A stretch of 64,000 nt of DNA from the NCBI GenBank assembly GCA_021229015.1, contig CM037795.1:12619193-12683192 (forward strand). The letters run 5' to 3'. Both the position numbers and the translations under genes were made by a program. This DNA comes from Solen grandis (taxonomy: Eukaryota > Mollusca > Bivalvia > Adapedonta > Solenidae). Under the pieces are notes generated by a model. The model did no database searches and was not told the DNA's origin. It worked only from the letters and a program-made list of their open reading frames with translations. Shown here piece after piece: positions 19,831 to 46,791 of the stretch (positions within the stretch are counted from its first letter, which is position 1; each line of letters begins with the position of its first letter).

Positions 19831-19871
19831 CATATCGCCAAACAGTTCTTTTATAGTCAGTAGTCGTCAGT

Positions 19872-21127: not shown

Positions 21128-21372
21128 ATGCTTTTCCTGAGAACGGCTTGGATTATGATGGATAAATTTGGACTTATTTTCCGTGTCGCGGCGTGTGTCC
21201 ACATACTGGGAATTGTTTTGGAACCAGTGTATGGATCGAACTTAAAGATTGGGATACTCGGTGTCGTGAACGATTCTTCGAGCTGGCAATGGTTGATGAA
21301 AACCGGAAGCGCCATCAACATCGCTGTGGACCAGTTGCAGGAAGATCAGGTTTTACAAAACACCACATTCAG
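21128..21372 (+). CDS. Receptor guanylate cyclase-like gene, exon 1 (signal peptide and start of ANF-receptor domain)
   Basis: Possible starts are ATG at 21128, 21155 and 21158; the last two give a cleaner signal peptide, with a hydrophobic core before VYG-SNLKIG. After the predicted cleavage the sequence SNLKIGILGVV and ..AINIAVDQL matches the first strand and helix of ANF-receptor (periplasmic-binding-protein-like) ectodomains of natriuretic peptide receptors and membrane guanylate cyclases. These convert GTP to cGMP on ligand binding. The exon ends at the donor CAG|GTAAAG (21373) in phase 2 (trailing AG), which joins in frame to exon 2 at 40891, giving NTTF-S-YVYKDTT. Frame and family fit both support the exon; cyclase activity is inferred because those domains are outside the window. 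Confidence 0.78.
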
Positions 21373-24300
21373 GTAAAGCACGATTGCGTGTGTATGCGTG
21401 TGTGTGCGCGCACACGTATATTTGAGGAGACGACAACATAAAACGATAGAAAATTGTTATACCCAACAATTACAACTGTGTTTTCGACTACTTTTATTAT
21501 TACCACTGGATAGTTTTTTACAATTACTGCATAAACATATCTGAATTTATGATTTATTTAATTTCATATAATAATAATAATAATACATAATATAAGTTTT
21601 CAAGATAGAAATACAGCAGAAAAAAACGTATTCCCGGTAAGTAATTTTTAAATTGCTCTTGGTGAAAAGTGAAAAAACAAACCTAACAGGATTGTATGTT
21701 ATTTAAAATATAAATAAGTATCATTATTCATTTCATTACCAGTAGGTTGGAAATAAGTACCCAGAAATCCATGGGTCGGGTATAAGATTGCACTAAATTA
21801 CTATCCGTTACCCGATGTTGGCTTTTTCTATTTTGATACTTTGTGTGGGATTTTTTTCTTTATAACATTATATTCACGTCAGTAGGCAATTCATGACGGA
21901 TTGCTATATTTGACAGAATTCTACACACTATCAAGGATTTATCAAAACATTGCTTAAAGACGTATTTTTTGTGTACAAAAGCCTGTATCGTATCAAAATG
22001 TCTTCATTAGTGTATTTATACATTGATTACGGTACATCTGTACTGGTACCAGCAGGTAAAAGTATAGATGTTACGGTACCCGGGTAAAAAATGGACTCGT
22101 TTCAGCCTTAATTACCAGGACATTTTTCTTCATTTACTTTTTTTTCAAACATTAAATACCAATCACAAAATTCTGTGATAATATTTCTGTTCATACTTTA
22201 TTCTGCTCTTTTTTTAACCATCAATAAACAATCTGACTCGGTAAACGATTATGTTAACATCCTTCTATCTCGAATTTAGTAAGCAAAACATAGTTCTAGA
22301 GGATCTGATAAAGGTATTATCATAACTCACCAGTCTTACAAATTATAAGTTAAGGACAAAGATATAAAAGAATAAATCCTGATAATAGTATAGTTTCAAA
22401 TATCAAATGAAATTCGTTACGCAACAGAATCCTTGTTATTACTTGGCATTAAAAAAAAAGGGGGGGGGACAACCAGTAAGTACGTAAGTACTGGATTATT
22501 CCATATCCATACCTTTTATAAGTGAAAAAGTAGTTATGACAAATCTATGTCATTCATAGTGTGGGTGATATGGTTTACAACACGGTATCTCATCAGTTAA
22601 CATAAAATGATTATTAATTCATTTCATTTGGGGAATAGGTAAGACGGGATACGCCCACTAGTATTCAAGTGTTACTTGACGCTTGGTGGAAAAATGGTGG
22701 AAACGGGCAGTCGCAAGGCCTTCCTGTTTCTATGACTCTGTATTCATTGTGCATTTTGTGCACAGATCCGGCAATATGATTTTTATTGTTCTTTGTCTTA
22801 ATTTGATACGTATTTCATTCAAGAATGAAAAGGATTGAACAACAAGCAATTATCATTTTTGAGCTGCATTCTGCTTCTCAGAATGCAATCTCATTGCTAT
22901 GATCTCGGTCTCCGGAACCTGATAACTCAGATTTCAGTATACTTGCTCCTCACGAAGTAGGCCAAATTGTTTCTATATAATATCGTGAGTTATTCTTATC
23001 TTTCTCGTATGAGTAATTGTTTCAGAAAATGTTGTTTGTAAACCATAATTATTTTATAGTAATAACACAGCTAATAAAATGATATTTCATTCTGGTTCAT
23101 ATTTACAGATGAATATTACAGTCTGCGGCTATATGTACGGGCCTGCGAATGAATTTCAAATCAACACATATGTAGCTTAAAACTTTGCACCGAAAATATT
23201 TACGCAATTAGAATAAAATTAGCATAAATGGTCGACATTGCATTGGTGTTCATAGGATACAGTTAATACAATGTTTTACGACTTAAAAATAACGACTTTT
23301 TATTGTATGAAAGTGTGTACACTTTAAGACCGGGCGCCGTCCCAATAACCCATGTATTCCATCGAATCCTATAACATTAAATCAATCGACATATATTTCA
23401 GATTCTATGACATTTTACTATAGTTTATAATTCAATAAGGATACTTTGTTATTTTTTAAATAAACATTCGGAAAGTAGTTCGAAAAGGTTGAGATACATA
23501 TCAAAAATTTTAATACCGAAAAAAATCTTAATCATGACAGTATCATAGCAGAGCGTTATGGTATCTGTTCTGAAAGATTTTATTCCATTCAATTAAATGT
23601 CTATGATTTCAAAATCCTATGATTTACCTAACTTATAAGCTAGGATAATGTAGGACTATCGGTCCTTTGATTTTATTCCTTACAACAAAATCCTTAAAAC
23701 GGTTTTACGATTGTATAAATTAACTTGTCAGAATACATTTTCACCCAGTATTTAATCGTTTTTGCAATCGTCGGAAATATATTAAAGCACTCGTATGTGT
23801 GTGCGTGCGTGGTGCGAACCTGTTTTGATGGGTCGGTTGAATATTCACGTGTTTATTATATTCATTTATTAAAGAAAACTTTACCACTGGAGAAAAAACA
23901 ACGCACGTACAAAATTTACCATCTCCAAATGTCATCAACAATGACAAAATGGGATGTCTTACGATACACTCGGCATATGCGCCCTCTTAAATACCTACCC
24001 CCACTAAAAATGTTATCCTGGAGATTGTGTAGGACTACACCGGATTGAAGATATCATGACATTATCTGAATAATGATTCAATGACATGGGATATTCTGCT
24101 AATATTTCAGCTCCTCCGTTTAAACCCATACAGAATCATATCATATGTTTACACGTGATTTAAGATTCAATACAATTTCAATACAAGTCAAAATATATAT
24201 GATTCACAAACATGGGAATGTTATATACATTGCGTATATACATTTTTTTTATATGTTTGATTATTTGCTTTGGTGAATTGATGTTTTTTCACCTCATCAA

Positions 24301-24862
24301 GCCATTCCGTCTTTTTGATAAATATGTGTCAAAAAGGTGTATGTATTTTACATTTTGAAAAGAACAAAATCGAAAAAAATGAGATACTTTTAGTTACAAT
24401 GTCTACTCGTATACATGGTCATGTTTGTGAATCAAATAAATTGGGTTAAAATATCATATCATAGTGTGTTAAAATGTCGACTTAACACAAAACCTATCAC
24501 CAAAAGAAGGCCCTTCTATGTTTCCGTACATATATGACAAAGCTTTGTGAAGTTTATATAAACCTACTTGATTAATTTTCACATAAGGGCGCTCATTATG
24601 TTTTCCGTGTATTTCTACGATGAAATCGTAAATAATAAATTAGTTGAGTTACAAAGGAATCGATAACATTTATTTACGAGACAGACGATTACCCGGAAGT
24701 CTATTGAGGGATCCAGATGTGTCGACCTTTGGTGTGAACTAGATGACCGTTGTGAAATAAACACAGTGAGGTGGTAGCACGCTCACAGCATGTCATCGTG
24801 TTAATTTCATATACTAATTATTAATACATATTCGTGGGAGATCATTTTTTTTATTGATTACG

Positions 24863-25644
24863 CACAGGGACTCGAAGTTGCATGGGGCGAATCATTTCGT
24901 ACTTAGTGGTAACATTAAAAATAGGATGGGAGGACACTGTTCTGAGACCAAATTTGGAAAAACGCGTTCATAACGAAATTCAACATTGAAAATGGACCAG
25001 GTTGTGTTTTAAATGAATAAATTCAGAAATTCTAAACGTAAATGAGGTAGTTTTTCTCTTGTAACGATAATATCGTTGATTAATTGTTCCAATCGAGCTT
25101 GACAAGAGCCGGGGAAACCTACTTCCAGTTTCTTTAGAAGTGAATAGAAAGGTAAGTTTTTATTGGTCAGTCAAAATGTAAACGAAACTGACATTTCCCG
25201 GGAAAACATCATTAAGTTACGGAGGCCCAGAATAGCATAAACAACGCGAACGAAAGTGGGCGCAATGTAATCATTGTCGGACAAGAAGGTACAGGGAAGT
25301 CATACCTGCTTACACAGTATTTGATTCAAATATGTTGACCAATAAGCGCTTACATTTTATTCATTAGAAAAGAAACCGGAAGTAGTCGGTCCCGGCTGTT
25401 GTCAAGCTCGATTGGGACATTAAAACACTTGTTAGTCATTTATAAGAGTAAAACCAACACGGGAAACGACACGATTCTATATATATATTCATTTCAAATG
25501 CGTATAAACCATTTTATTAATGATCGTTATTTGCCGAAAATGTGATATTCATAATATAGCCGAAAATAGTGTCCTCCCTTCCTTTTTTTAATGCTACCAT
25601 TATGTATGAAATGATTCGCCCCATGCAACTTCGAGCCCCTGTGT
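24863..25644. mobile_element. Foldback element with about 300-bp inverted arms and a unique loop
   Basis: Left end (from 24863) and right end (to 25644) are inverted copies. Both carry CTCGAAGTTGCATGGGGCGA and ATCATTTC, continuing through CATTAAAAA.AGG. The inner arms match again around CCAATCGAGCTTGACAA, GAAACC/GAC..ACTTCC and ATTGGTCA. The arms meet a unique loop of about 160 bp (about 25175-25336), which holds a P-loop-like reading frame. No transposase is present. No target duplication was identified. Confidence 0.82.
25216..25335 (+). pseudogene. P-loop (Walker A)-like coding fragment in the foldback loop
   Basis: An open frame of 40 codons is bounded by TAA (25213) and TGA (25336). It contains NVIIVGQEGTGKSYLLTQYL, which fits hydrophobic strand + GxxxxGKS + helix; GQEGTGKS is at 25279-25302. 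This is the nucleotide-binding loop signature of P-loop NTPases and GTPases (for example Roc/COR or STAND families). Only the first motif is present, so the family cannot be named. It occupies almost exactly the non-palindromic loop, consistent with capture of a host exon fragment. A chance match is possible because the frame is short. Confidence 0.45.
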
Positions 25645-26479
25645 GAATGTCACACACGGAAAGTAATCCCTCAGAAACTATTTATTTCGCAATGACTTTA
25701 CCATTCCTGAAGATGGTTAGAAGTTATGAAATTTGATATAAAAGATAAATAAGTTTTTTACAGCATTTTTAAATCGTCAGTATGGTTATCTCTTATAGTT
25801 CCATTAAACAAAGATTAGCAGCTACCGGTAGTCTAAATCTCACAAAAGCACGTGACAAATTGTTTATCTCTCGCAAAGTCACGTTTTCAAATATCTCCTA
25901 TTTGAATATATGTGAAAGTAAAATGTGTCTTACAATAGAACATTACAATACCATCAAAATGATACCTTATGTATTAATTTATGTATTATTTATTAAATAA
26001 GACAAGAAATGGAAATGTTTTAGGAAAGTATCAATATGTTGATAACTATGTAAACGAATTTTGAAAATAAATCAAACTAAAAATAAATTATTGCAGTAGA
26101 GAAATGATTATTTACAATATAATAACAAGTACTATTACATTTTCCTCGGTGATTTTTCCATACTATTTTTGGAAAGTTTACAATATTCAATGATCTGCTG
26201 TGTGCCTAAACAATACCTACCACTGACTTAAACAGGAGTTTCCTGTCCCTGTTTAATATGTCTTTGGTAAAATATTGCCTCCGTTGACAGTCATAAACTT
26301 ACGAATACAATCTCCTTTTGGGAGATCTCACACACATTTATCTGCCACAGTGAGTTGAAAATAGCTGAATTTCAGCTATGTTTTACTTAGAACAAAAACT
26401 ATATTTTCAGTCAATGAACCCACTTAGAGCTGTGCTTCAAGTAGTGGAACCTTAATGCATGGATTTTTCTTATCACCCT

Positions 26480-27560
26480 GAGTCCGTCGTCAACAATTTG
26501 CTATAAACGACATCTCCTCTTAAACCGCTGGACAGAATTTAATTAAATTTGGCAAGGATGATCCTTGGGTGAACATTCACAAAAGTTACTAAAATAAACT
26601 AGCTTAGAACTCTGGTTGCCATGGCAACGGAAAGAAAAAATATGAAAACTTTAAAAATCATCTCCTTCAAAACTACTGGTCAGATTTCAAAATGTTTTAG
26701 TACAAATGTTCCTTGGGTATCCCCCTACAAAGATTGCTAAAATTATTTCGATCCACAAAAAACATGGCCGCCATGGGCGGGGCTAATTTGCTTAAATATA
26801 TATAGTGAAAACTTTAAACGACATCTCCTCTGAAACCGCTTGACAGAATTTAATCAAACTTTTAAACTTGGATATAGCCTGATTTCTAAGTTCAGTATAA
26901 TACACCGAATATTAGTTATTTGCTACTTTATTCCTGCTCTTTTGTGACAATAATCTTGAATAATCAATGATAATAATAATGATAATGATAATATTTATAT
27001 ATCCTATTTATGGTTCATTTTCCATTGCATGTTTCATGTAAAATCATTGTTAAGTGTAATGACGAAAATATAATTATAAAAAAATTTTAAGAAAACAAAT
27101 TCCACCATTTTCTACTGTACATAAACATATATATATACAAATACATAATTATACTACTATAAACTTAAGCATTTCATTTCCAGCTAGTGTAACCTGTTAC
27201 TTGTCTTTAAGAAATTCAAAGTCTAAACATTCATTAAAGGTTATCCGAAAAGATTTATAAAAAAAAAAAAATATTAAGTTGTCCCTTAATTTTTTCCCCT
27301 CTGAAACCAATGGCCAGAATTTAATTTCAATTTGCACAAACGGTTAACTCATAGCCTTCTACCATAATTGCTTATTTTAAGTTTATTTCTTAAAAATGGA
27401 GCACCAGATGGTTGGCTAGTTTCCTAATAATTATACTGTTTATATATTTATAAAAAATCTTGGTAACAAATGGTCAGATTTTAATTTCATTTGGCACAAA
27501 TTGTCACCTCATAGTTCTCTACCACATTGCTAAAATAAATTTTATCCTTTGAAAAAATGA
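26480..27560. repeat. Diverged bivalve-type interspersed repeat modules
   Basis: Modules built around 'CATCTCCTCT.AAACCGCT' and 'CAGAATTTAATT.AA.TTTGGCA', followed by a statement-like 'CCTTGGGT...ACAAA' segment, recur at about 26505, 26660, 26820, 27300 and 27465 with strong divergence. One module carries the palindrome GTTGCCATGGCAAC at 26615-26628, a canonical RFX X-box. No coding capacity is evident. Confidence 0.55.
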
Positions 27561-28969
27561 TGTCTTAAGTGGGGGCAGCTAGTTTCTGTATGTACTCTTC
27601 ATATACATGTATATAGTTAAATTCAAAATCATTTTCCTGAAGCTAATAATCAGAAATGTATTTTTCCTAATGATATCATGGTCCTTTCCTGCAATTCTAT
27701 CAAGTTATTGATCCCATGGAAAATGAGACCTTATTTTCTATTAATTATAATCTGTATAAAAACTCTGAGCATTTATTGCTACTAAAGGTCAAATCAAGTG
27801 GCCTGAAATGTTATAATTAGGTGCATGGTATTCTGCCCTCTATTGTCCTTTATTAAAAAAATTGTGTTTTCCTTTCCTGGAGCATAATTCTCTTTATTAA
27901 ATTAAGCTAATGATATTTGGTACATGCATCATTGACGTGGAGCGGATGTGTCGCAGGCAACTTTTTCTATTAGAGCGTCTTTTCCTTTCAGAGTTGGAGT
28001 CTTTTTTAAATAAAAAAAAGAGAAAATCTGCAGCATTACTTTGTTTCTATTAAAATTGTCTAATGTTGTTAATAAATATTTCCAAGAAGAGCTCTTCTCT
28101 TCAGTGTTTTTGCGCTTTTTGGAAAATATGTCCGCAGTGTTACTTTGTTCTTATTTAAGATAGGCTGATGATATATGCTAAATGTATTGACGGCTTGTAA
28201 AGGAGGCTATAATAAATTTTGGAGAATGGCCCTTCACTTTCATAATCATTTACCTTTGTCTTTAGATAAAATCTCTTATTTAAGATCAGCTGATGATATA
28301 TGGTTCATGTACCAATAAAATGGAAATCATGTGTTATTGTTCTTGTTAAACAATGTCCACAGCATAATTCACAATATATTCAAGTCGTTATCTCCGCTTT
28401 AACTCAGTCGATGTGCCCCAAGCTTCGCACATGCCTTGATCATCTTCAGATCAACTTGTAGAAACAGGGACAGTAACTCTTACAAATATTTTTTTTTTTG
28501 GTAAATTTATATAATATCTCCACTTTATATATACATATCGAAAGCTATTGAAAAAACATTTTCTATGCATTCCTTTTTTTTCCTTGCTGTATATTAAAAT
28601 TACTTCTTGAAAAAAAATACACAAAAATAAGATTTTCTTTTACAATGTTTAATCTTTTACCACACTAAAACTTTATAAAACCTTAGTCACCATCCATTTT
28701 TTTTCTTCTGTAAACTAACTTATGTAGTGTCAATAAGTAACACTTATCAGTCAGAGACGGTTGTAAGTAGAAGAACAATCACCCTTTAAACAAGGGGCCC
28801 AAGGCTGAAATCTTGGTTTGGCCGTACAGTTTTCTCACTTGGTTATTTTGCACCGAACAAGGATCATTATAGAATCTCCAATGATCAGGAACATTATTAA
28901 TTTGATCTCTGTAAATCCTGCAACGAATTCCAAATTGGCAAGGAATATGTAACTGTTATCATTGGGAAA
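27561..28969. other. AT-rich intronic stretch
   Basis: Nothing recognised apart from weakly repeated phrases such as 'TGATGATATATGGTTCATGTACCA' variants near 27910, 28150 and 28290, suggesting three diverged modules of about 140-240 bp. Confidence 0.35.
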
Positions 28970-29020
28970 CTTTTGTAAGTGGTCCCTGGTTTTAGTCCTG
29001 GTCTAGCTGCACATTTTTTC
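28970..29020 (+). repeat. tRNA-like SINE head remnant (family C)
   Basis: GGTCCCTGGTTTTAGTCC followed by TGGTCTAGCTGCACATTTTTTC resembles the 3' half of the tRNA-like head at 30105-30190, including the GCTGCACATTTTTT exit sequence. The 5' half is not recognisable. Confidence 0.45.
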
Positions 29021-29433
29021 GCCTTCTTAAATTGAAACGCTTTTGTTTCCTCCAAATATGTATATCTGGCCTTTGTTTCAATATTTTTACGTAATGTATG
29101 TCTTTTCATTTTAAGATTCCCTTCAAGTCTTGGCACTAGTTTTCTATTTATGTACATGTACTTCAATATATATACTTACGTAAACAAGTTCACATCTCAG
29201 TAAAGGTTATGTAAAAATAAAAAACAATTTGTTTTCCTGTTAACCCACATAAATGGTATTATCAGTTTTTCTTTCCCGCCGTGCTTATTTCAATATGCTC
29301 TCACAGGCAGCACTTTTGTACTTGTACGTAGTGATGTGGAAACAAACGGGCTGCACACTTTTCTCGTCCAATTTCATTAGCTGCATCACACTGACATTAA
29401 ACACGTTTGTTTATATAAGACGTAATAAAATAG

Positions 29434-29671
29434 TTACATGTTTCCACTAACCCGACCGACCCCCCCCCCCCCCCCCCCCTTCTTTTTTATTTTTTTTGTT
29501 CCGACCCTAGAGTTTTTTTCGTAGTTTTCGGCTTATTACGGATGGAAAACGCTATTTTTCGTCAAATTTTATAAAACATAAGGTAAAAATGGAAAACAAG
29601 TTTAGAATAAAAAAAATGTTTAGCCGACCCACCGACCCTATTCTTTTCGGAGATGTAAGTGGAAACAAACA
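29434..29671. repeat. Possible short MITE with homopolymer C core
   Basis: Short imperfect inverted ends (ATGTTTCCACT at left, AGTGGAAACAAAC at right) enclose a 20-base C run (29461-29480) and CCGACCC motifs. Related GGGTCGGTAGG sequence occurs beside the poly-A tract at 40355-40450. The ends are short, so this is tentative. Confidence 0.35.
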
Positions 29672-30104
29672 ACTTTTTTCGCCTAAGGCAACTATGCAGA
29701 GTTCTAGTTCTTCGTGTGTGTGTTTTTTTTTGTTTTTTTTTTGATAGTAGGTCTATATATTACTTCAACAACGGTAAGCATCCGCATTCTTATTTTGTTA
29801 TTTCAATAGTACGTGTATAACAAAAGAAAATTATTTATGTGTGAAAAAAGCCACAAACCATCTAATATTTCAAAAAAAAAAAATAGAACTTGGCAGTGTG
29901 TTGTTAGCCATTTTGTATCAGTGGCTTTTTGCGTCTGTATGTATAAGGAATTACATTCGCATTGAATCAGACTCAGTATCGGTATCTGAATCTGACAACA
30001 TTGTAGAGAGGGTCGTTTTAGGTTGACCTTTATATAAGCCAATCAAATCGGCGTCTACCAAATCGTAAGGTACACCGCATCAATCTCGCAATAAGATAGA
30101 AAGA

Positions 30105-30190
30105 TATGTAAGCGGTCGGTAGGTCATTTGGTAGAGTATTCGCTCTGTAAGCAAAAGGCCCCGGGTTGAGTCCCGGTCAAGCTGCACATT
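30105..30190 (+). repeat. tRNA-like SINE head (family C)
   Basis: GGTCATTTGGTAGAGTATTC followed by CTCTGTAAGC and CCCCGGGTTGAGTCCCGG fits a tRNA D-arm, anticodon arm and T-arm with internal A- and B-box promoters. Instead of a mature tRNA end it continues into GCTGCACATTTTTTC, also seen at 28990. It is therefore more likely a SINE head than a tRNA gene. Confidence 0.55.
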
Positions 30191-30561
30191 TTTTCACACC
30201 CTGTGACAAATGTTTTACCGAAGTCAGTTAGAAAAGCGCTATTTAATTGGTTTAAAAGCGAACACTTGTTTATGCATATAAATTACTTTAAAAGTCAATC
30301 TGACGTGAACCCTAATGCGATGTCGTTTCTTGATAATACTGACACACCGACCTTTATGCGCTCGTTTTGTAGATTGAGATTTAGTGGAGATTTTTCATAT
30401 CAAAAATTAATTTTGAATTTTGAGCCGAATACAGTTTTATGATTTTGCTGCATGTCTTATTACTTGTACCTCATTTTTCAGTAGAAAATAGAACTGTCTA
30501 TTTCTTCAGGTTGAGCGTTTCATTTTACCTGGATTAATTTTTCCATTCAGAAATGTCACAA

Positions 30562-30861
30562 CCGTCCCCGGTAGCCGAGTGGTTTGAGCGTCCGCCTCGT
30601 GAGCGGGAGGTCGTGGGTTCGGCATACCAAAGTCGTAAAAAAGGGTACTGTTATAGCTCCCTTGCTTGGTGCTCAGCATATAAGGGTAGTTGCAGGACTG
30701 GTTGGCCCGGTGTCAGGATAATGTGACTGGGTGTGGTATCATGCCACATGTCTACGACGTGATACTGTAGTGTGGCAGCACTAAATCTGTCTAAAGTAGA
30801 CATCGTCTTCAAACGACTGAAATACTGTCGCTTGGACGTTGAAGCCAACAAACAAACAAAC
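30562..30861 (+). mobile_element. SINE-A copy with B-box deletion
   Basis: Complete head-to-tail SINE-A with an ACAAACAAAC end. The B box is cut short: GGGTTCG is followed directly by GCATACCAAAG, about 14 bases of the usual T-arm being absent. Without the B box this copy is probably not transcribable by RNA polymerase III. Confidence 0.85.
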
Positions 30862-30914
30862 TATCTCAGTAAGATATATTGCTGCCTCACTGGATTTTTA
30901 CGCAGTTGACTGGT

Positions 30915-31090
30915 GCAAGTAACATCATCCTGACTTGGCTAACATGTCCTGAAACTACCCCTTTGTGCTGAGCGTCTATACAAGGGTCATCCAAAAATGT
31001 GAGACTGGTTAAACTTCTCAAAATAAATAACTAATTACAATTTTAACGACCTTGCCCGGGGATTAAACCCCCGACGCTCTAACCACTTGA
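30915..31090 (-). mobile_element. Degenerate SINE-A fragment
   Basis: ATGTCCTGAAACTACCCC, TGTGCTGAGCG and GGATTAAACCCCCGACGCTC are the reverse-orientation SINE-A landmarks in order. The rest is eroded. Confidence 0.6.
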
Positions 31091-35903: not shown

Positions 35904-38090
35904 TGATTAAGTCTTTGACCCTCAAAATCCTTATCCCCCTCTTCTCTCAAACAAAAATTACTCCATAACACCAAACAAATTATTCCATTGTTGTACAAGT
36001 AAATCATTTTTGCCTAAAATATTCATTGTTTCCATTACAGTTTTATACTGGTAATTAAGAAAAAATCTTACCCCAATAACCGTTGGTAAAGTTCCCTTTT
36101 TGTCTTGCATTTATATATAAACTCTTTCATGAATATAAAAAGCAAATTAATGACAACATGTTTTCTGTCTTTATATCCTAATATAAAAGTATCAGCAGAC
36201 ATAATATTTAGAATACTGTCTTGATCAAAAAATAATTGCTGAATAAAATTTTGAATTACAGAGCAGTGCCAGAGCAAATGTTCAATTGTTTCAGAATCAT
36301 CTGAACAGAAAGTACATTTAGGATATCTTTATAGTTTATTTTATGTAACAGGTCGTTCGTACCTAAAATCCCGTGAATTATTCTGTATTGAAATCATTGT
36401 ACATAAGAGTATTTTGTTAGTGTAAAATGCAATTAGAAAATAGTTCTCCAGTCAAAATTTGGTATATTTACTCCCATTTTTTGTGCCATGTTTCGATACA
36501 TTTTAGCACAGTATTTGTTTTTGCAATTATATCATACATTGGTTGTGAACTTTTTTAGAATATCAACAAATGAAGGAGATAATAAAGGTCTGCACTTTTT
36601 CTTTCGATACATTCCTTCATATGTTTTAATGTATGATGTAACTTAATTTAAAATACCTTAGAAAGTCAGAAAATCTGTTTTTATTTTGTAAATTTCATTA
36701 AATTCTTTTAAATCATATAAATGTCCATGAACACTGAATAAGTCTCCAATGGTGTGTACTCCGGCGTGAAACCAGGCTTTTATAAAAACACAATTATGAT
36801 TTATTGTTATATTTGGATTGTAAAATAAAGGATAACCCAAAAGATCTTTTATCCCAAGGTTTTGTTTTTTGCACAATACAATATAGGAACTTGACATTTT
36901 TCCAAAATTCATTTTTGATTTTATATAATAACAACTTACATCACATAACATAAATTTCTTAACATCAAAATACAAGTGAACAATATCTTGCCTATTTCCA
37001 TTCGTAGATATAAGGCGCCTTACCATGTTATTTTTAAAACATGTACATGTATATAATTTTCTAAATCTACCATTTTTAAGCCTCAAATTCTTCAAATTGT
37101 TTGCAGATAATATCTTTTTTTACTCTATATTTGCCTTGCCAAATAAAATCTAATATAATGTTATTGAGCTGTTTTATGTAATGCGAAAATTGGTTAGTTA
37201 AAGATGTGAAAAGATGATTAAATAAGGGCAAAGTCAATGTTTTCACTACAGTTTTTCTACCAGTCGGGGAAAGTATTCTTCTTTTCCATTTTTTTAAGTA
37301 TTTTATGCATTTTGCTTATGTTGTCATCATAATTCAGCTAAATCATTCTCTCTAAAACTACATGGAATTCAATGCCAAGCATAATACATCCATGTTGGTT
37401 CCAGGAGAGTTTCCATTTTGTTTTAATAGTCTTAGAAATCTATTTCGCTTTTTCTATCCAAATTATTTTTGTTTTATCAAAATTTACTTTCAAACCAGAG
37501 AGAGAGAGAGAGGTTAGAGGGGTCAGGGTTTTAAGAGTTCCATTAAGAGATGTTTCGGAGCCGTCTAGTACTATAGGTGTATCATCAGTGAACAGAGATA
37601 GCTTATGTTCTATTTCATTTAATTTATACCTTTTATTTTTCTTATTTTCTCTGATCTATAATGAAAGGATTTAAGCACATAAGATAAAAATATTGCAACT
37701 GAGTGGATCTTCCACGTTGTATTGGAAAAAAGTTTGAAAGGATTTCACATTTGTTGATAGCAGAAATACTATTTTAATACAAAATTTTAAACCATCGTTT
37801 GATATCCTTACCAAAATTAAACAGAAATAAGGTTTTGTATACAAAGGACCAAGATAAAGAATCGAACGCTTTATCAAAGTCAATTAGTAACAGCAGGCCC
37901 GGAATGTTTTTGTCATCAGTATATGACATGATATCATAAATCAACCGTGTATTTTTTCCAATAAATCTTCCTTTGATAAAGCCTGTTTATCTAAGCTGAA
38001 TTTTATCTATTAAAAATATATCATTTTGCTATACAACCTGATTCAATTATAATTTTGGTTGCTCACTATTTTAATTATGCGCCTCCATGG
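35904..38090 (-). mobile_element. L1/Tx1-like LINE, decayed, 5'-truncated
   Basis: Minus-strand remnants in order: GKNTRLIYDIM and LLLLIDFDKAFDSLSW (about 37940-37860), SNIFILCA-type box (about 37680), catalytic loop F-T-D-D (37581-37592), KVNFDKTKIIWIE (about 37480-37440). An open 145-codon C-terminal frame (37095-36658) and a Cys-His motif C-T-F-C..E-T-I-E-H-L-L-W-H-C (about 36320-36255) follow. It parallels the plus-strand element at 7.75-11.86 kb but keeps both catalytic aspartates. A CT microsatellite has expanded inside the RT at about 37499-37512. Frames are broken throughout. Its 3' end directly abuts the 34-bp satellite. Confidence 0.8.
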
Positions 38091-38516
38091 AACAAATGAG
38101 CCCTTTTCAAATCCATGATAAATCAAAGCAATCCGTAATGAGAGACTGACGGCAGGATTTACATAGAAAAACTTTGATTATTTTTTCCAGCGTATAAGCA
38201 TGTTTGAATTCGGTATAATGCAAAGGGTATATAACTACCAAAACTGCACGTTTTCCTGCAATGTTGTACAAGTTAGGCAGCTAAATCATGATAACTCCGC
38301 CTGCAGTCTCTCGGTGTCTTGAGCGCTTTGATTTGTTTCGGAATGTCTTGGCACTGATTCCATTCATACATGTATATTGTATACCTAAGGTCATGACCCA
38401 CTTCAGTACTAGTGAACCTACTGTACATAATCGCATTGCATTCATTTGATAGGCTACTGAGCGCAGAATTATAAGATACGGACGTGCATTTCAATCGGCT
38501 CTTGTAATTATACATA

Positions 38517-38768
38517 GGACCGCCGTGGCCGAGCGGTTACAGTCGTGGACTACAAATCTCTCAGCCCCTCACTGCTGTGGGTTCGAATCTCGGTAGGGAC
38601 TTTGGATTTTTCATGTGAGGAAGCCTTCCAGCTGGCTTGCGGTAGGTCGGTGGTTCTACCCGGGTACCTCTGTGTACTCGGGGTCTTCCTCCACCTGTAA
38701 TTAGCTGGACATCGCTATATGATTGAAATACTATCGCAGCGACGGTAAACTCCAAAACAACAACAACA
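38517..38768 (+). mobile_element. SINE-B copy, full length, (CAA)n tail
   Basis: Head: CCGTGGCCGAGCGGTTAC, then GGGTTCGAATCTCGG; body with CCAGCTGGCTTGCGGTAGG and CCTGTAATTAGCTGG; 3' end ACTATCGCAGCGACGGTAAAC followed by CAACAACAAC. One of the best-preserved SINE-B copies and a useful reference for the others. No clear target duplication is visible. Confidence 0.88.
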
Positions 38769-39690
38769 AAAAATCACAAATGTCCGCTTTTGATTTACTA
38801 ATTAACAAGATAAACTCGTTGCAGGAGGTGGGGGCATTGCCTTGAACTTTGCTACATAAAGAAACGTTTATATGTAATGCTTTTTCGATGGATTACCTAG
38901 AAATAACAGTGTATTATATCAGGAAAACAGTAAAATTATCAAGAACTTGAACCCAAACTTGCGTTATAAACTGATCGAAGCGTCAATTGTGCTGGGTTTT
39001 ACATAAGAAATGACGTCATATGAATAACGTCACGCACACGACGTAATCCCGCCAATTTTGACCTTTTTTTTTCTTGTAAATAACACAGCTTATTTCTGGC
39101 CTTTAAAACAATACATAGGAAGAGAAAAAAAAATGTTTGTTTTGGTGAAAGATCGATGTTTAATTTCATTCGTCAAAAGATTTCACTCGCATTTTCACTC
39201 GTGGCGAGTGCGTTTGCCTGTATGGAATGAGTGTGACCAAAATCATATGTATCAACTATTATGCAACAATGTACCAACGTACTCGTTGAAAATAAAAAAA
39301 AATAAAGTTCTAACCTGTTCATAAACTGTATTTAACACATAAACTGTTATCAGTTAGAAACAACAGGGTTATCATTTTCCAAGAACGCCTAAACAGAGTA
39401 CCATCACCTTAATTAAACAATTCAGGTCGCTTGATATATCTGGTTACATTCAGCAGATCCAAATTCAAATTTTATATGCAAAGAAATTTCTATGCAGACC
39501 GAGTAGGACCAGAGTACTGTTTCATCAGCCAGATTCAAAATTCAGACACAATGAAGTCTTAAGTTTTATTAAAACATTAAACATAAGCAAAATAGCCAAA
39601 CCTCTGAAGGCCTTATTCTTTAAATTATCAAAATCTATTTTAGCAATAATGGTAGACAGCCCTGGGGTTATTATTTATGCACAATGATAT

Positions 39691-39730
<40 letters not shown>

Positions 39731-40311
39731 AGCCGTAAAGGCCTCATTTTTCAAGTGAACATTTTTTTATCAATGATAGTAGAAAACTCCGAGGTAACCA
39801 TTTATGCCGAATGAAATTAAATTCTGACCATTTGTCTCAGGAGAAGAATTTTGATTTTTTCTAAATGGAGTACATTAAGAAACTAATGATGAATATATAA
39901 GGAAACTATCTGAACCCCTAGGGACTTCAATTTTCAGTTATCAAGTTAATTTCTGACATTTTCTCAGAGTAGACCTTTTTTCAGTTAAAAATAAAATTGT
40001 GTTGGTTGCCATGGCAACCAGAGTTTTGCATTATTCATGCTTCAAAGGCTGGTTTCATCATTTTCTATTCTGTGGCATCAGAAGAAATGTCGTTTGAAGA
40101 CTGACGACGACGGGCGACGGGTGATAAAAAAAATAGCTCACCTTGAGCATGCTGTGCTTTGGTGGCTATAAACAATGATCAATGAAACACATTTGTAGAA
40201 CATTTCCAGTGACACAGGTTAACTGCTGATCGATAGACTACGCATGCTATAGCCGAATATACAAGCATATGATTTAATGCGACGAGGCCAAAAAATAGTT
40301 TCGTTTCTGGT

Positions 40312-40358
<47 letters not shown>

Positions 40359-40890
40359 GAGGGTCGGTAGGTAGGGATTTTTTTAATGAAACAAAAGGTA
40401 AAAACAACAAACTTTAGGTTCCGTTGTTAAAAAAGAGGGGTCGATCGGGAGACCTAAACGGATTTTTTTTTTAAATTTATTTGCCTTAAAAGAGTAAGTA
40501 TTGACTTTATACCATACACTGTAATGTCATCACTTTTCGTTTGGGATTATTTTTGTAGATGATGTAAACATTCATTCAAATAGATCTAGTTTGGACAAGG
40601 GAATAATTCCAGAAATGTTCGTATGTACCCACGAAATTATATCAGCCACATCAAAAGAAGCAAACATGTGATGCAGTATTCGGTCTATTCTGCATTAAGC
40701 GGACAGACATGGGAACAAGAAAAAAGATCGCTTATAAACGGGGTTGTTGCATGAAGGTTTAATTAAAAAGCAACAAAATGCTCGTGAAACAGGTCGGCTT
40801 CTGTGATGGCCGATTAAATATTTCACTATATTTTCATCAATATCTTGATGTGCGTTTGTCATTTCTTGTCCGATTCGATTTTTTTTTCAG
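38769..40890 (+). other. End of intron 1: poly-A tracts, CRE- and X-box-like palindromes
   Basis: No exon before 40891. Notable sites are TGACGTCA at 39011-39018, with a further ACGTCAC just downstream, and GTTGCCATGGCAAC at 40005-40018. There are A runs of about 27 (39700) and about 38 (40319-40357). The part 39590-40140 resembles widely dispersed bivalve repeats ending in GACGACGACGGGCGACGG and AGCTCACCTTGAGC. Confidence 0.5.
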
Positions 40891-40997
40891 TTATGTGTAT
40901 AAAGACACCACATTGTTGTCAGACGGGGTTGGAAACGTTGTAGATCTCGTCATGAACGAGAATGTTGACGTCATCTTCGGCTCACCTTCATCCAGAG
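40891..40997 (+). CDS. Receptor guanylate cyclase-like gene, exon 2 (copy a)
   Basis: 107-bp exon between TTTTTTTTCAG and AG|GTAATT, phase 2 in and phase 1 out. It encodes YVYKDTTLLSDGVGNVVDLV then MNENVDVIFGSPSSR. This corresponds to the ANF-receptor segment 'DT-C..A......V-V-IGP-CS', where the ectodomain's second strand meets the ligand cleft. The two cysteines usually flanking this segment are replaced by Leu and Ser. Joined to exon 1 it continues the domain without gap. The last 80 bases are nearly identical to the minus-strand exon 2b; the first 27 are not. No exon 3 follows on this strand before the gap. Confidence 0.78.
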
Positions 40998-41591
40998 GTA
41001 ATTGACCTTTACTGTTTTCCTACAAAACTTAAGGTATACATACTCCTCTTCCAATTGAATATCCTTACGCATTACAAAGAAGAACAAAACATGGTACAGG
41101 AATATCGACTAATTGACTTAAATTTGTGAAACAGTAAAGTTCATAACACGTATCATAAGGCTGAAAATAACTGAAATATGTAGTTGCAGTTGTAGTAAAT
41201 TTAATTTCGTAATGTGAAAGTAGTTCGTTAACTTATAAATTTTAATCTTATGCACGTTCAGTACTTTGATTCTCGACTGTGAACGTCCCTTAAAGGCATC
41301 TCGAAAGGAATGTGAGCCAGGCCCCCACCTGCTGTGACCAGACCTGCTAATTGCTGGTCATCACTGCAGGGAGTCTTTAGCCAATATAGTACTAATCTGT
41401 CACAGTAAAACCTCTGATGGGTTAATGCAAAACTAAATTACCTGCTATTATGGAAGTGAGACAGTAGATTAGTTTTACACAAAGCCATAAACATTTTAAT
41501 GAATGTTAGTGATAATGTGGGTTGTTTACTGTTTGATCCCTTACATATTCTTTATTGCATTAATTACTAGGTGTCAATTTTGTAACTGCAT
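40998..41591. other. Start of intron 2 on the plus strand
   Basis: Follows the donor GTAATT. No exon or repeat recognised. It is not visibly homologous to the intron following exon 2b on the minus strand apart from GTAATT itself. The LINE insertion begins about 41592. Confidence 0.4.
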
Positions 41592-43341
41592 GATTAAAGG
41601 TGACGCTTTTGACCCAAATAACTACCGCGGTATCACGATAACTAGCTGTTTTTGTAAACTTTTTACAGTTATAGTGAATGAAAGACTTAAGAAATGGTCT
41701 ATAGAAAATAGCATTATAACAGACGCACAATTCGGCTTTAAGCAGAACTGCAGTACGGTTGATAGTGTTTTTGTATTGAATTCATTGATAGAGAGACAGT
41801 TACGTAACAAAGAAAAGTTATATACGTGTATGATTGATTTTCGCAAAGCCTACGATTATATTGACCGAGATGCATTATGGTTTAAGTTAATACAAAGCGG
41901 GATTGATGGAAAGCTGTTGTCGATTGTTAGAGCTATGTATAATGAGGTGCGTTTGGCAGTTAAACATTTAAATACTGTATCAGACTTTTTCAATAGTGAT
42001 ATCGGCTTATTTCAAGGGGAAATCACATCGCCGATATTTTTTTCTCTGTACTTAAATGATATTGAGGCATTCTTGCAAGAAGATAATAATGTGGGTATTA
42101 CAATTGATCAATTATCTATATGTATGCTGTTATACGCGGATGATGCGGTATTATGCTCAAATTCTGCAGAAGGGTTACAAGAACTATTAAATAAACTTGA
42201 AATATACTGCAATAAATGGAATTTACATGTTAATACAGATAAAACTAAAGTAGTCATATTTAAAAAAGGAGGTAACCTACAACAGAATTTACATTTTACC
42301 TATTCTAATATAGATATAGAAATCGTCACCCAGTTCAATTATCTTGGATTAGTTTTATCTAGTGGCGGGTCATTTTCGCCGGCAACTAGAACTCTGAAAG
42401 ATAAGGCATTGAGAGCTATGAACTCATTATTTAATATTATCCGTGGTCGAGAGATACCAATCAGTATTATGTTTAACCTATTTGATTCATATGTTTTGTC
42501 ATTTCTCAATTACGGATGCGAGGTGTGGGGTCATATGAAGGCGGATTGCTTAGAAATAGTACATAGAAAATTTTGTAAATGGTTGCTTAATGTTAAGATA
42601 CAAACGAATTCTTTAGCTATATACGCCGAGTTGGGTAGATATCCATTATATATATCGCGATATGTTAGAATGGTTAAATATTGGTTGTCATTATTTGGGG
42701 TTAAAGGGGGGAATGTAATTTTAAATAATATCGTAAAATTTCATAGGAGGGAAATTACTGAAAATGAAAATATAGTTAACTGGTCATCGAAAGTAAGAGA
42801 TATTTTGCAGCAAGCGGGTTTCAACGATGTTTGGTTATTTCCAGAGTCGGTGAATATTCAAATGTTTTGTATGGTCCTATCAACACGATTTAAAGATATT
42901 TATTTTAGCCATTGGCAAACAGCAGTACAAAATAGCTCGTCGTTATATCTTTTTAAAGAAATAAAACTTAACATGGAAAGAGCGTCATATTTGCATTTAT
43001 TAGAAAATGTTCAACATAGAAATATCATAGCAAGATTAAGATTATCATCCCATAATTTATTAATCGAAACGGGTAGACATAGGCAAATTGAGAGAAATGA
43101 TAGGAAGTGCAATTTATGTAATAGAAACGATATTGAAGATGAGTTTCATTTTATTCTTGTTTGTCCATTATATGCAGTTTTAAGATCAAAGTATATACCA
43201 AAGTATTATATAAATAGACCAAATATGTTTAAATTTGTAAATCTTTTATGTTCTGAAAATAAGAAATTATTAACTAAACTAGCTATTTATTGTAAACAAG
43301 GATTTCAACTTAGAGATAATACACTTAATGATTCAGGTTAA
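41503..43341 (+). CDS. LINE reverse transcriptase, uninterrupted reading frame
   Basis: 612 codons without stop or frameshift. The first ~29 residues (41503 to about 41590) read through flanking DNA; genuine LINE sequence starts at KGDAFDPNNYRGI, so the Met at 41503 is unlikely to be native. Motifs: NNYRGITI; A, MIDFRKAYDYIDRDALW (about 41835); B', GLFQGEITSP (about 42004); C, LLYADDAVLC (about 42127); thumb LHVNTDKTKVVIF (about 42223). A C-terminal Cys-His knuckle CNLCN..H..C lies at about 43110-43175. Both catalytic aspartates are present. Truncated, so not autonomous, but young judging by the intact frame. Jockey/I/CR1-like group; the precise clade cannot be assigned by eye. Confidence 0.88.
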   Translation: MLVIMWVVYCLIPYIFFIALITRCQFCNCMIKGDAFDPNNYRGITITSCFCKLFTVIVNERLKKWSIENSIITDAQFGFKQNCSTVDSVFVLNSLIERQLRNKEKLYTCMIDFRKAYDYIDRDALWFKLIQSGIDGKLLSIVRAMYNEVRLAVKHLNTVSDFFNSDIGLFQGEITSPIFFSLYLNDIEAFLQEDNNVGITIDQLSICMLLYADDAVLCSNSAEGLQELLNKLEIYCNKWNLHVNTDKTKVVIFKKGGNLQQNLHFTYSNIDIEIVTQFNYLGLVLSSGGSFSPATRTLKDKALRAMNSLFNIIRGREIPISIMFNLFDSYVLSFLNYGCEVWGHMKADCLEIVHRKFCKWLLNVKIQTNSLAIYAELGRYPLYISRYVRMVKYWLSLFGVKGGNVILNNIVKFHRREITENENIVNWSSKVRDILQQAGFNDVWLFPESVNIQMFCMVLSTRFKDIYFSHWQTAVQNSSSLYLFKEIKLNMERASYLHLLENVQHRNIIARLRLSSHNLLIETGRHRQIERNDRKCNLCNRNDIEDEFHFILVCPLYAVLRSKYIPKYYINRPNMFKFVNLLCSENKKLLTKLAIYCKQGFQLRDNTLNDSG

Positions 43342-43581
43342 TATTTAAATAGCATATTTAATGTGATTTAAGTAAGTATTTCAAATATTTAAATTTTGTT
43401 AGTCACTCTCACATATATACATATATACATTATATATATACATATTTGCTTCATTAATATATGTATGTACTGTCTTTCATGTTGCATGCAGTATATCTTG
43501 TTGTTTTGTGATGATGAGCTTCGTGCTTAAGTCCAAATAAAATTTTGTTCTGTTCTGTTCTGTTCTGTTCTGTATTTATTT
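41592..43581 (+). mobile_element. 5'-truncated LINE with GTTCT tail
   Basis: The element begins within the RT at about KGDAFDPNNYRG, lacking ORF1 and endonuclease. It ends after a 3' UTR with CCAAATAAAATTTT and tandem GTTCT repeats (about 43547-43575). It sits in the intron after exon 2a, or at a scaffold edge close to the gap. A relative with the same tail is decayed at 53.2-54.7 kb. Target duplications were not found. Confidence 0.88.
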
Positions 43582-43900
43582 CATAGCTGTAGAACATGGC
43601 TACCAAATCCAGAGGGTGTGAGTTACATGGGACATAAATGGAAGTGACCTCCTCATGTTAATCCGGTACTCTAAGAAATGTAACGAAACGTTACTAACAT
43701 TGTAAAACGTGCTTATTTTATAATTGAATTGAAATTAATAATTAGTTTATGGAAAATCATGAGTGTTGTTTTTCTTCTTCATTTATATTATTATGACATA
43801 ACAAACAAAAATCAAGTATTTAAAACAGTGTTGATTTTCTGGCATAAACATGAGTTGAGGGAAGAATTGAGAGAATGAAAGTTTTTAGTAATACATAATT

Positions 43901-44000
43901 NNNNNNNNNNNNNNNNNNNNNNNNNNNNNNNNNNNNNNNNNNNNNNNNNNNNNNNNNNNNNNNNNNNNNNNNNNNNNNNNNNNNNNNNNNNNNNNNNNNN
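43901..44000. other. Assembly gap, 100 N
   Basis: Exactly 100 N, the conventional placeholder for a gap of unknown length. Receptor exons on either side point at each other across it, so order and orientation here should not be trusted. Confidence 0.98.
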
Positions 44001-44143
44001 CGTCTGCTTAATGATGCTGAGGTAACTGTCGATGACACTGTTGCTAAGCAACGTGTTGGGCGGATACGCAATACTCTGCATAATCGTCAGGTTCTTCAGA
44101 GCAAACTCGCTCTTCAATCCGGAGGCGCTGTACAGGCAAAGAC
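44001..44143 (-). CDS. Receptor guanylate cyclase-like gene, exon 4 (partial, runs into the gap)
   Basis: The acceptor CCCTTGCAG lies just upstream (44144-44152 on the minus strand). The first two bases GT complete the codon left by exon 3 (G + GT = Gly), giving LYLDYG-LCLYSASGLKSEF. It continues KNLTIMQSIAYPP to VIDSYLSIIKQT at the gap edge. In ANF-receptor domains the segment after the 'FGW..IG..Y' strand has a Cys, a helix with G, then 'YDSYLKEIK..ARVVI', which this follows well. Phase agreement with exon 3 and family fit make it a real exon. The 3' end is lost in the gap. Confidence 0.75.
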
Positions 44144-44194
44144 CTGCAAGGGTGAAGCACAGAAAGGTCGAGGGTCATTTTCGATATATTTCGA

Positions 44195-44375
44195 ACACTT
44201 AATATATATACGTATATATAGGATGTGACATGAATTGTTATTTCATATTAAACTTTAGTAACGAGTTCACGAAAATATTAAGTGTATATTGAGTGTTAAA
44301 TATAAGAAATATGTGATGGTTAAACGAAACCGGAAACAGCTGTTTAAGCATATTGTCATATGATAAAATGCAGTA
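44195..44375. mobile_element. Fragment related to the 58-59.7 kb foldback element
   Basis: GACATGAATTGTTATTTCAT, TTTAGTAACGAGTTCACGAA, GTTAAATATAAGAAA, ACGAAACCGGAA and ATTGTCATATGATAA occur in the same relative order as in the right part of the element at 58.07-59.72 kb, with internal sequence missing. Probably an internally deleted relative. Confidence 0.65.
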
Positions 44376-44679
44376 TTCTCTATTATATAGAGATATTAAA
44401 GATCTTAAAAATGTGTCTCAATATACGATAAGATGTTATATTTCTTAATACAATTTTCAAATAGATATGGTTTTATTTTTCAAAAAACATGAAAGCATAA
44501 TTAAATGTTATCTTAAGTATTCCTTTATATTACAGGCTTCTTTGAAATAACTAAAAAAATCTATCAAACTTAAAAGCACCGTATAATCTACTGTAATCTT
44601 TCAATTACCACTGACATTTATACAGTTTACCGCGTTAAGACGTTACGTTTATGACGTAACTTCCGCTTGTTGTTATTGT

Positions 44680-44717
44680 GTTATTCAAAATAACCTGCTG
44701 AAGGCGTAAGCCGAAAC
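44680..44717 (+). other. Hammerhead-ribozyme-like core, degenerate
   Basis: A perfect 6-bp hairpin (GTTATT/AATAAC, 44680-44694) abuts CTGCTGA (44695-44701). A GGC-GTAA-GCC stem (44703-44712) and GAAAC (44713-44717) follow. This is the order stem I, CUGANGA, stem II, GAAA of hammerhead ribozymes, which are known from Penelope-like elements and retrozymes of invertebrates. The core has C where A is conserved (CTGATGA), and stem III and a cleavable NUH triplet are not convincing. Probably inactive, possibly coincidental. Confidence 0.25.
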
Positions 44718-45138
44718 GTTGATGAATGATAACTTTATATGTGTTTTTGTTGGATTTACTAAATCGTAAATGATAACTACTGACCAAATTGTTATGAATG
44801 GTCCTAGCTATAGTGAGTATCTGTCAAGATTTGTCTGCGTGTGCAAAGTACTTGTACAAACCAGCAGCCTTTGAGGAGGGGTTATTCAATAAAACACTTT
44901 TTAAATATAAAATAAATCAGTTGAGATTGTACAGTGTGAATTTATCATAGTAAGTCGGCTGAAAAGTATTGCATTCCAGTTGGGACAAATGTAGATTTGA
45001 CCTGTCAAGTTTTAGAAAACACAGTTCCAGTTGCAAATGTACGGCAATTTAATCTTAAATGTATTTGCAACTCTCAATATACAGTTAAAATGTATTGCAA
45101 ACCAATAGAGACACACGCAGACTGTATAATTGCAACTA

Positions 45139-45438
45139 AAACTCTTTTTCAAATGCAATTGAAATTGTATAATTTCATCTTAAACTCTTTTTCAAATGCA
45201 ATTGAAATTGTATAATTTCATCTTAAACTCTTTTTCAAATGCAATTGAAATTGTATAATTTCATCTTAAACTCTTTTTCAAATGCAATTGAAATTGTATA
45301 GTTTCATCTTAAACTCTTTTTCAAATGCAATTGAAATTGTATAGTTTGTATAGTTTCATCTTAAACTCTTTTTCAAATGCAATTGAAATTGTATAATTTC
45401 ATCTTAAACTCTTTTTCAAATGCAATTGCAACTGTATA
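45139..45438. repeat. 43-bp tandem repeat, about 7 units
   Basis: The unit starts AAACTCTTTTTCAAATGCAA and continues TTGAAATTGTATAATTTCATCTT. One unit carries a 10-base internal duplication of TTGTATAG (about 45345) and the last is partial. It lies in the intron between exons 3 and 4. Confidence 0.95.
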
Positions 45439-45534
45439 TTTTTAAATTTTTAAAAATTAATTTAATTCTTTATCTAAAATACAATTCTAACTGTATTCTT
45501 GCAAATACTACTCTATCTCAAATATAAAACAAAC

Positions 45535-45738
45535 CGTAATCCAAATAAAGCATCCCGATCTTGGTCCATCCAAATTCCTCGAAAAAGAGAGCAAAAGCCT
45601 TCCCGACCTCACTGAGGGGACCGACGGTCCGTATGAGGGTCCGGAACAAGGTCTTGTCGGACAATTCAAAACTGTTGGCACCCCATGTGATGTGAGGAAA
45701 ATTCCAGTGTGACGTAAGATGGGAGGTCGGAACGTTCA
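45535..45738 (-). CDS. Receptor guanylate cyclase-like gene, exon 3
   Basis: 204-bp exon. The acceptor TCTTCCAG lies directly upstream on the minus strand and the donor is ACG|GTTTGT. It encodes VNVPTSHLTSHWNFPHITWG, then SFELSDKTLFRTLIRTVGP and FFEEFGWTKIGMLYLDY. The 'A..A..WN.P..SWG..S.ELS.K..YPT..RT.GP' pattern and the FGW strand are diagnostic of ANF-receptor ectodomains of natriuretic peptide receptors and membrane guanylate cyclases. The first two bases TG pair with the phase-1 G that ends exon 2 (GTG, Val). This is the most family-diagnostic exon of the window. Confidence 0.85.
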
Positions 45739-46138
45739 CTGGAAGACAGACACGGACGCCAAATTTTATTGGAATATATCTAAGATATATTGTCATCATA
45801 CATGCATGAGGAATAATGTGGTATGCTAGTTAGATTCACACACATTGATCAGTACCGACATGCATCTGACTGTAAACTTTATATACTTAATTGTACCGTT
45901 GTCCAATGAAAGTGTACTTTAGTTATGGACCATCATGTTAAGAGTTTGATTCTCTGAAGGAAAGAAGGTTTCGAGGAGAACCATTCACTGTTTTCCCAGG
46001 TAATCAATTGAGTTGATAATATTATGTACTCATTGATTTTGGTTTGGGGATAAACTAGAAATATCATGAAGGTGATTAATACACACATACAGTGATTTGA
46101 CTCAGAATATGAAACCAGACAATGGTCTTTTCTTAGCA

Positions 46139-46560
46139 ATTCTGAAGTTTAAAAGGGCCATAGCTGTGTCAAAATTTATGGATTTTGCCCACAGTTTATC
46201 TTAAACTTCATTTTATTTCAATGTGTATTAAAAATGTTTATAATGGTTGAGCCTTTGATGTATGACTGATCGGACAAGGTATTTTTGTGCAAATTCTAAG
46301 TCGAAAAGGGGCCATTACTGTTTGAAAAGTTTACGTTCTTTGTGCAAAGTCAACTGACTTGCTTGACAATTTATTGAGATAAACATGTGTACAGTACAAA
46401 AATATCAAAACCCACTTGGCTTATGATGAAGTATCAATCGGACAAGGTCCGGAATTTTTGGCAAATTCTTAGTCGAATGTCAAACATTTACGGATTTTGC
46501 CTTAAAACTTGGCTTTCTTTTTATTGAAATGTACATGTGTTTTGATCTAAAATATCTAAA
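46139..46560. repeat. Diverged tandem modules of a bivalve-type repeat
   Basis: Three modules about 155-170 bp apart (46139, 46293, 46464) share 'TTCT.AGT..AAA.GGGCCAT' or its start, 'TTTATGGATTTTGCC' and 'GATCGGACAAGGT'. Lies in the intron between exons 2b and 3. Confidence 0.6.
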
Positions 46561-46684
46561 TATGTCATCCCATCCATGAGTTAGACGGACTGATGGACAT
46601 ACGGACACGCCAACTCCACCATTTTTTTAAAGGGGGGGGAGGGGGCGGTATACCAACAACGAAATGATTTTTATTCAAAATTAC

Positions 46685-46791
46685 CTCTTGATGAAGGGGA
46701 GCCGAAGATGACGTCAACATTCTCGTTCATAACGAGATCTACAACGTTTCCAACCCCGTCTGACTGTAGGACGGTGTCTCGGAATATATAG
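46685..46791 (-). CDS. Receptor guanylate cyclase-like gene, exon 2 (copy b)
   Basis: 107 bp between TTATTCCAG and AG|GTAATT on the minus strand; same length and phases as exon 2a. It encodes YIFRDTVLQSDGVGNVVDLV then MNENVDVIFGSPSSR. Against 2a it differs at 5 of the first 9 whole codons, then shows only 3 silent changes in the remaining ~80 bases. Its first base (C) also gives Ser when joined to exon 1's AG, so it could splice to that exon. Exon 3 lies 946 bp downstream on this strand. No exon 1 for this strand was found up to 64000. Confidence 0.8.

Follow-up and report, generated by a model that had tools for sequence, protein, structure and literature searches.

Probable natriuretic-peptide-receptor-like paralogues truncated at a shared assembly gap in Solen grandis

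Natriuretic peptide receptors, including the clearance receptor and receptor 1, belong to the ANF_receptor family and are the best relatives of solved structure for the receptors described here, which are represented by five exons in a 64,000-nucleotide (nt) stretch of the Solen grandis genome (GenBank assembly GCA_021229015.1, contig CM037795.1, positions 12,619,193 to 12,683,192 of the forward strand). This whole stretch is called the window below and coordinates count from its first letter. With a profile of the receptor family, the clearance receptor was matched at an expectation value (E) of 8e-34 and receptor 1 at 9e-25. The relationship is a distant one, and the membrane, kinase-like and cyclase parts of the natriuretic peptide receptors lie outside the receptor sequence that is visible in Solen. 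This ranking comes from the profile, because the joined exon sequence alone puts metabotropic glutamate receptor 5 first (3e-7 vs 8e-5 for natriuretic peptide receptor 1).

Among database proteins, a first search with a hybrid query of joined exons drew 441 candidates, two of which reached E <= 0.001; both are from Mya arenaria and named as receptor-type guanylate cyclases, one gcy-6-like (P0001) and one gcy-13-like (P0002). They share the ligand-binding domain with the Solen exons, align with exons 2, 3 and 4 in order, and are 54% and 68% identical to the query over 87% and 67% of its length. Unlike the Solen locus, however, each has a single exon 2 segment, and they carry 276 and 228 more residues, which are missing here at an assembly gap. 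No cyclase domain was found in either Mya model by Pfam. The two are 50% identical to each other over the aligned part and come from contigs that differ in length; judging by this pair, a single clam can carry two or more paralogues of the receptor family. A second search, carried out with an alignment, drew 5865 candidates, of which five reached E <= 1e-5; the additions were a further Mya model, a protein of the oyster Saccostrea cucullata and one more protein. Among the papers searched, none names Mya arenaria together with receptor guanylate cyclase, and the one paper brought up on expansion of guanylate cyclase genes in bivalve genomes concerns a diatom.

Two other kinds of described arrangement resemble this locus. 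Convergent tandem duplicates are neighbouring homologous genes on opposite strands, as the two genes proposed here would be, but in Solen an unsized join is what sets the orientation, and neither gene is complete. Pairs of mutually exclusive exons are homologous, have equal length and phase and shift the frame when used jointly, and the same was found for two of the Solen exons, 2a and 2b; these are neither on the same strand nor neighbouring, however, but lie on opposite strands as assembled and would be at least 20 kilobases (kb) apart even if the contig to the right of the gap were flipped.

Receptor exons on both sides of an assembly gap

The only run of N in the window is exactly 100 N long (Table 1), which by common practice is a placeholder for an unsized join. 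Exons 1 and 2a lie to its left on the plus strand, exons 2b, 3 and 4 lie to its right on the minus strand, and each of the five matches receptors of the ANF_receptor type from bivalves. These exons very probably come from a pair of paralogous receptor genes that are both cut short by the gap, and a duplication cut by an assembly break is the most sensible, ordinary account of the locus. Gene A would comprise exon 1 and its own exon 2 (2a) on the plus strand and gene B its own exon 2 (2b) and exons 3 and 4 on the minus strand, both heading toward the gap, with their missing exons located in the gap or on sequence that belongs there. Both genes are presumably complete and expressed, and gene B would have an exon 1 of its own outside the window. 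As predicted members of the natriuretic-peptide-receptor/receptor-guanylate-cyclase ligand-binding family, each would presumably make its own receptor, with an extracellular domain that may bind a ligand. If the layout as drawn is right, the gap probably represents many kilobases, because both genes lose their 3' halves at one and the same place; 100 N used as a placeholder are compatible with a gap of that size.

The exon set is real and not a product of chance, because a profile built from relatives only (P0001, P0002 and P0004), run on the 2122 six-frame segments that are 20 amino acids (aa) or longer, picked exactly these five exons. They were the five matches over the inclusion threshold (E 1.4e-30 to 3.2e-5), and the next best segment had an E of 1.7. 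A ligand-domain profile run on the whole window found no further receptor exons on the minus strand left of the gap or on the plus strand right of it, and no Pfam receptor domains were found at 29501-43900 (minus) or 44001-58400 (plus). Membership in ANF_receptor (PF01094) by the curated Pfam cut-off of 25.4 bits follows from exons 2b, 3 and 4, which together score 74.4 bits (E 1.2e-20), and the names of the relatives, along with the profile ranking given above, are in keeping with a place of the sequence among the receptor guanylate cyclases and natriuretic peptide receptors.

All splice signals are of the GT-AG type. Exon 1, in which two more in-frame ATGs occur at 21155, encodes the start codon, a hydrophobic leader and the beginning of the ligand-binding domain; its frame is open from the first ATG, it matches P0001 residues 30-73 (tblastn E 0.23), and it ends at the donor CAG/GTAAAG (the slash marks the exon boundary) with a split codon of which two bases are left over. 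The acceptors of exons 2a and 2b are TTTTTCAG and TTATTCCAG, respectively, and both exons end in the donor GAG/GTAATT. Exon 3 follows the acceptor TCTTCCAG and has the weakest donor of the set (ACG/GTTTGT), and exon 4 follows the acceptor CCCTTGCAG and has a frame that is open up to the first N. An earlier sequence-only reading of the window had described receptor exons on opposite strands that converge on a 100-N gap, a layout that was borne out by the single N run, the usable splice sites and the profile matches.

Table 1. Coordinates of the receptor exons and associated features in the window
Feature	Position	Strand	Evidence or remark
Exon 1, gene A	21128..21372	+	Open frame and donor; hydrophobic leader; relatives-only profile E 3.2e-5
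Exon 2a, gene A, 107 nt	40891..40997	+	Relatives-only profile E 6.3e-11; tblastn with P0002 E 4e-10
Candidate gene-conversion tract	40918..41003	+	Near-identical to 46764-46679 on the other (minus) strand
Reverse-transcriptase open reading frame of a non-long-terminal-repeat retrotransposon, 612 aa, uninterrupted	41503..43341	+	RVT_1 E 1.3e-32
Assembly gap, the only one in the window	43901-44000	.	Exactly 100 N
Exon 4, gene B, cut off by the gap	44001..44143	-	Relatives-only profile E 7.2e-17; tblastn with P0001 and P0002 E 6.5e-15 each
Exon 3, gene B, 204 nt	45535..45738	-	Relatives-only profile E 1.4e-30; ANF_receptor E 5.7e-10 (read-through frame)
Exon 2b, gene B, 107 nt, homologous to 2a	46685..46791	-	Relatives-only profile E 6.6e-12

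Two diverged copies of exon 2

Judged by their alignment and structure, exons 2a and 2b represent one exon in two diverged copies. They have equal length and phase and an identical donor, 30 of the 35 residues in their translations are identical (YVYKDTTLLSDGVGNVVDLVMNENVDVIFGSPSSR for 2a and YIFRDTVLQSDGVGNVVDLVMNENVDVIFGSPSSR for 2b), and each aligns with P0001 at residues 75-107 and with P0002 at residues 8-42. The exon 2 segment occurs once in each of these two proteins, with exon 3 sequence directly after it. Joined in series as 1-2a-2b-3-4, the exons shift frame at the 2a-2b junction and then run into stops, and therefore the five exons do not form one messenger RNA; a serial five-exon gene was ruled out by these stops and by the single occurrence of the segment in the two Mya proteins. 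In contrast, 1-2a-3-4 and 1-2b-3-4 each remain open in frame. The statement in the sequence-only reading that all five exons are phase-compatible thus holds for the two alternative joins but not for the series. That reading had offered two options, and of these a single gene ordered exon 1, 2a, 2b, 3, 4 fails as a serial transcript, whereas two receptor paralogues have the stronger support, since one exon is present in diverged copies, 2a and 2b, with flanking introns that are unalike. Since the serial transcript fails, one gene is left only in the form of alternative use of 2a or 2b, which is likewise implied by the junctions that had been listed with the earlier reading (2a to 3 and 2b to 3).

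Comparison of the introns next to 2a and 2b, by local score over approximately 500 nt on each side of exon 2, showed similarity of the kind found in shuffled sequence, with the observed score being reached in 54 and 69 single-base shuffles out of 300 each. Moreover, the sequence common to 36001-43900 and 44001-52000 consists of exon 2 plus one 25-nt match only (E <= 0.1). Because the flanking introns are unrelated, we infer that the exon 2 copies are old paralogues, and neither alleles nor the result of a fresh local exon duplication.

Within exon 2, differences between the copies are unevenly placed. The copies have 86 nt in common at 96.5% identity (Table 1), and 14 differences fall in the first 27 nt, giving five amino-acid changes, compared with three in the last 80 nt, all of them synonymous. 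The best split of these differences has a P of 7e-8, with 0 of 3000 permutations (weak splits skipped) reaching it, and much of the split consists of amino-acid change. Among codons that encode the same residue in both copies, 1/4 differ in the 5' part and 3/26 in the 3' part. Synonymous divergence over the last 26 codons is approximately 0.18, and the introns that start a few bases from the near-identical stretch are unalignable. The better argument comes from the fourfold codons in this stretch, as only three of 15 differ beside unalignable introns, which suggests a short gene-conversion tract as the simplest explanation for the near-identity. Two observations count against gene conversion: third positions alone do not differ significantly between the two parts (4/9 in the 5' part vs 3/26 in the 3' part; Fisher P 0.055), and the 5' part of exon 2 is, by eye, also less conserved between P0001 and P0002.

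Orientation of the probable pair and alternative accounts

Several results weigh against two genes. With each gene expected to have its own exon set, exon 2 was found twice and no second exon 1, 3 or 4 was found in the window. Specifically, no exon 1 for gene B was detected on the minus strand at 46792-64000 by tblastn with the Solen exons (a search whose results covered exons 1 and 4), by tblastn with two relatives or by the profile; on the plus strand, exons 3 and 4 of gene A were likewise not detected by tblastn with two relatives or by the profile on six-frame segments. With 19.5 kb for intron 1 of gene A, the window may end before exon 1 of gene B is reached. Exons 1 and 2a alone score 18.8 bits against ANF_receptor, which is under the Pfam cut-off, yet both are backed by the relatives-only profile. 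Furthermore, the frames scanned near the gap yielded neither a kinase nor a cyclase domain. The Pfam scans (E <= 0.01) covered three frames at 29501-43900 (minus), 44001-58400 (plus), 49400-64000 (minus), 44001-50000 (minus) and 38001-43900 (plus), and one frame each at 1-14600 (plus) and 15001-29500 (minus), and yielded only ANF_receptor at exon 3 plus mobile-element domains; the missing cyclase part means little, because of the four receptor exons covered (2a, 2b, 3 and 4) exon 3 alone was caught. A last point bears on the tail-to-tail form only, as convergent order makes up 3-14% of tandem duplicates according to the figures given for 11 vertebrate genomes in PMC2547482.

Given two genes, the chance that their tail-to-tail order is real as assembled is put at a little over half. 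A somewhat less probable reading is that the right-hand contig is inverted and the true layout is a head-to-tail tandem pair, each member truncated at a contig end. Such a misorientation, if it happened, would likely still leave two paralogues, in parallel, and the probability given to it is part of that given to two genes, from which it differs in orientation only. An inverted contig is in keeping with 100 N as the usual mark of an unsized join. In addition, parallel order is the commonest among tandem duplicates (72-94% in the same 11 vertebrate genomes; PMC2547482), and orientation errors do occur in Hi-C scaffolding, with a rate of 4.3% given in PMC7672694 for 3D-DNA with short-read human and worm contigs. 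By comparison, the sequences on the two sides of the gap, with so little in common beyond exon 2, hold no positive sign of an inversion, and the product of these published rates, approximately 3-4% for parallel order plus error vs 3-14% for truly convergent order, strongly favours neither orientation, the rates being taken from other organisms and assemblies.

An inverted right-hand contig could also be read as part of a single gene in which exon 1 is followed by 2a or 2b, as mutually exclusive exons, and then by exons 3 and 4. This account is improbable; it needs the inversion and the mutually exclusive use together. Both of its transcripts would remain in frame, no second exon 1 was found in the window, and 2a and 2b have the equal length, the equal phase and a length indivisible by three that are frequent in such pairs (PMC5740500). 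With 107 nt each, their joint inclusion would be non-functional, a property reported for 60% of human mutually exclusive clusters (PMC5740500). However, even with the contig flipped a distance of at least 20.1 kb would separate the two exons, as 2,903 nt lie to the right of 2a and 17,209 nt to the right of 2b, a minimum to which the gap and the rest of the right-hand contig add, and the introns beside them hold no trace of a local exon duplication. Less probable still is the elaborated form, in which one gene on an inverted contig would have two variants of exon 2, separated by more than 20 kb, that swap the start of the exon (YVYKDTTLLS vs YIFRDTVLQS), the remainder being kept near-identical through exchange. 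If one gene were the true state, the variants would swap the start of exon 2's part of the ligand-binding domain.

It is very unlikely that only one gene is functional, with one copy of exon 2 being a stray duplicate or the remnant of a dead paralogue. Gene A does show exons 1 and 2 only, followed by a retrotransposon, but both copies are open and have good splice signals, their differences in the last 80 nt are synonymous, and gene A has a phase-matching exon 1 located 19.5 kb upstream. Both this account and that of the inverted contig with two genes overlap with the two-gene reading, and the confidences therefore need not sum to one. Finally, an artefact in which two alleles of one locus were scaffolded side by side in opposite orientation was rejected as scarcely credible: it would account for the near-identical 86 nt, but not for introns as unalike as shuffled sequence, for gap-side sequences that are unrelated save exon 2 and one 25-nt match, or for the first 27 nt of the exon, in which 14 sites differ and five amino acids are changed.

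Mobile elements, repeats and the meaning of the probable receptor pair

The reverse-transcriptase open reading frame listed in Table 1 sits between exon 2a and the gap, in the intron after 2a. Of 7996 proteins scored against it, 256 had E <= 1e-50, and among the matches listed (120 of the 256) the named relatives include ones from Mercenaria, Ruditapes and Mytilus. Another of those listed carries the label of a Thiodiazotropha bacterial bin and is probably host DNA in that bin. No clear target-site duplication was found around the retrotransposon, the best candidate in the two stretches compared being 10 nt long. More reverse-transcriptase fragments (RVT_1) are found at 2770-3423, 9640-10005 and approximately 53439-53678, all on the plus strand, and a 471-aa open reading frame with FLYWCH and MULE transposase domains at 49931-51346 (minus) is probably a DNA transposon.

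The only transfer RNA (tRNA) call in the window, Pro (CGG) at 13564-13634, probably represents the head of a tRNA-derived short interspersed nuclear element rather than a tRNA gene, because it sits within a dispersed repeat of approximately 310 bp with copies at 894-1212, 13559-13871, 30561-30861, 48140-48434, 52538-52821 and 57603-57895. Matches to exon 1 found by tblastn near 13655, 30644 and 48366 (E 0.03-1.1) were rejected, as they contain stops and fall in a dispersed repeat. A second dispersed repeat family of approximately 150-260 bp occurs in both orientations, at 18743-18997, 38507-38769, 54417-54612, 61358-61607, 62638-62882 and 8835-8991. Tandem arrays include 63 copies of a 14-nt unit (AGCTGTGTGTGACT) at 16992-17873, 34-nt units arrayed over 2.9 kb at 33002-35903, where periods of 68 and 102 nt also occur, and seven copies of a 43-nt unit at 45123-45442, in the minus-strand intron between exons 3 and 4 of gene B. 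Strong guanine-cytosine skew was observed at 34001-36000. No Rfam matches were found in the window at gathering thresholds.

For annotation of this genome, an automatic gene finder could miss both truncated receptors, and the five exons should not be fused into one gene model. With regard to the receptor family, Solen would hold a pair of paralogues in which part of one exon stayed, or was made, near-identical amid diverged surroundings.

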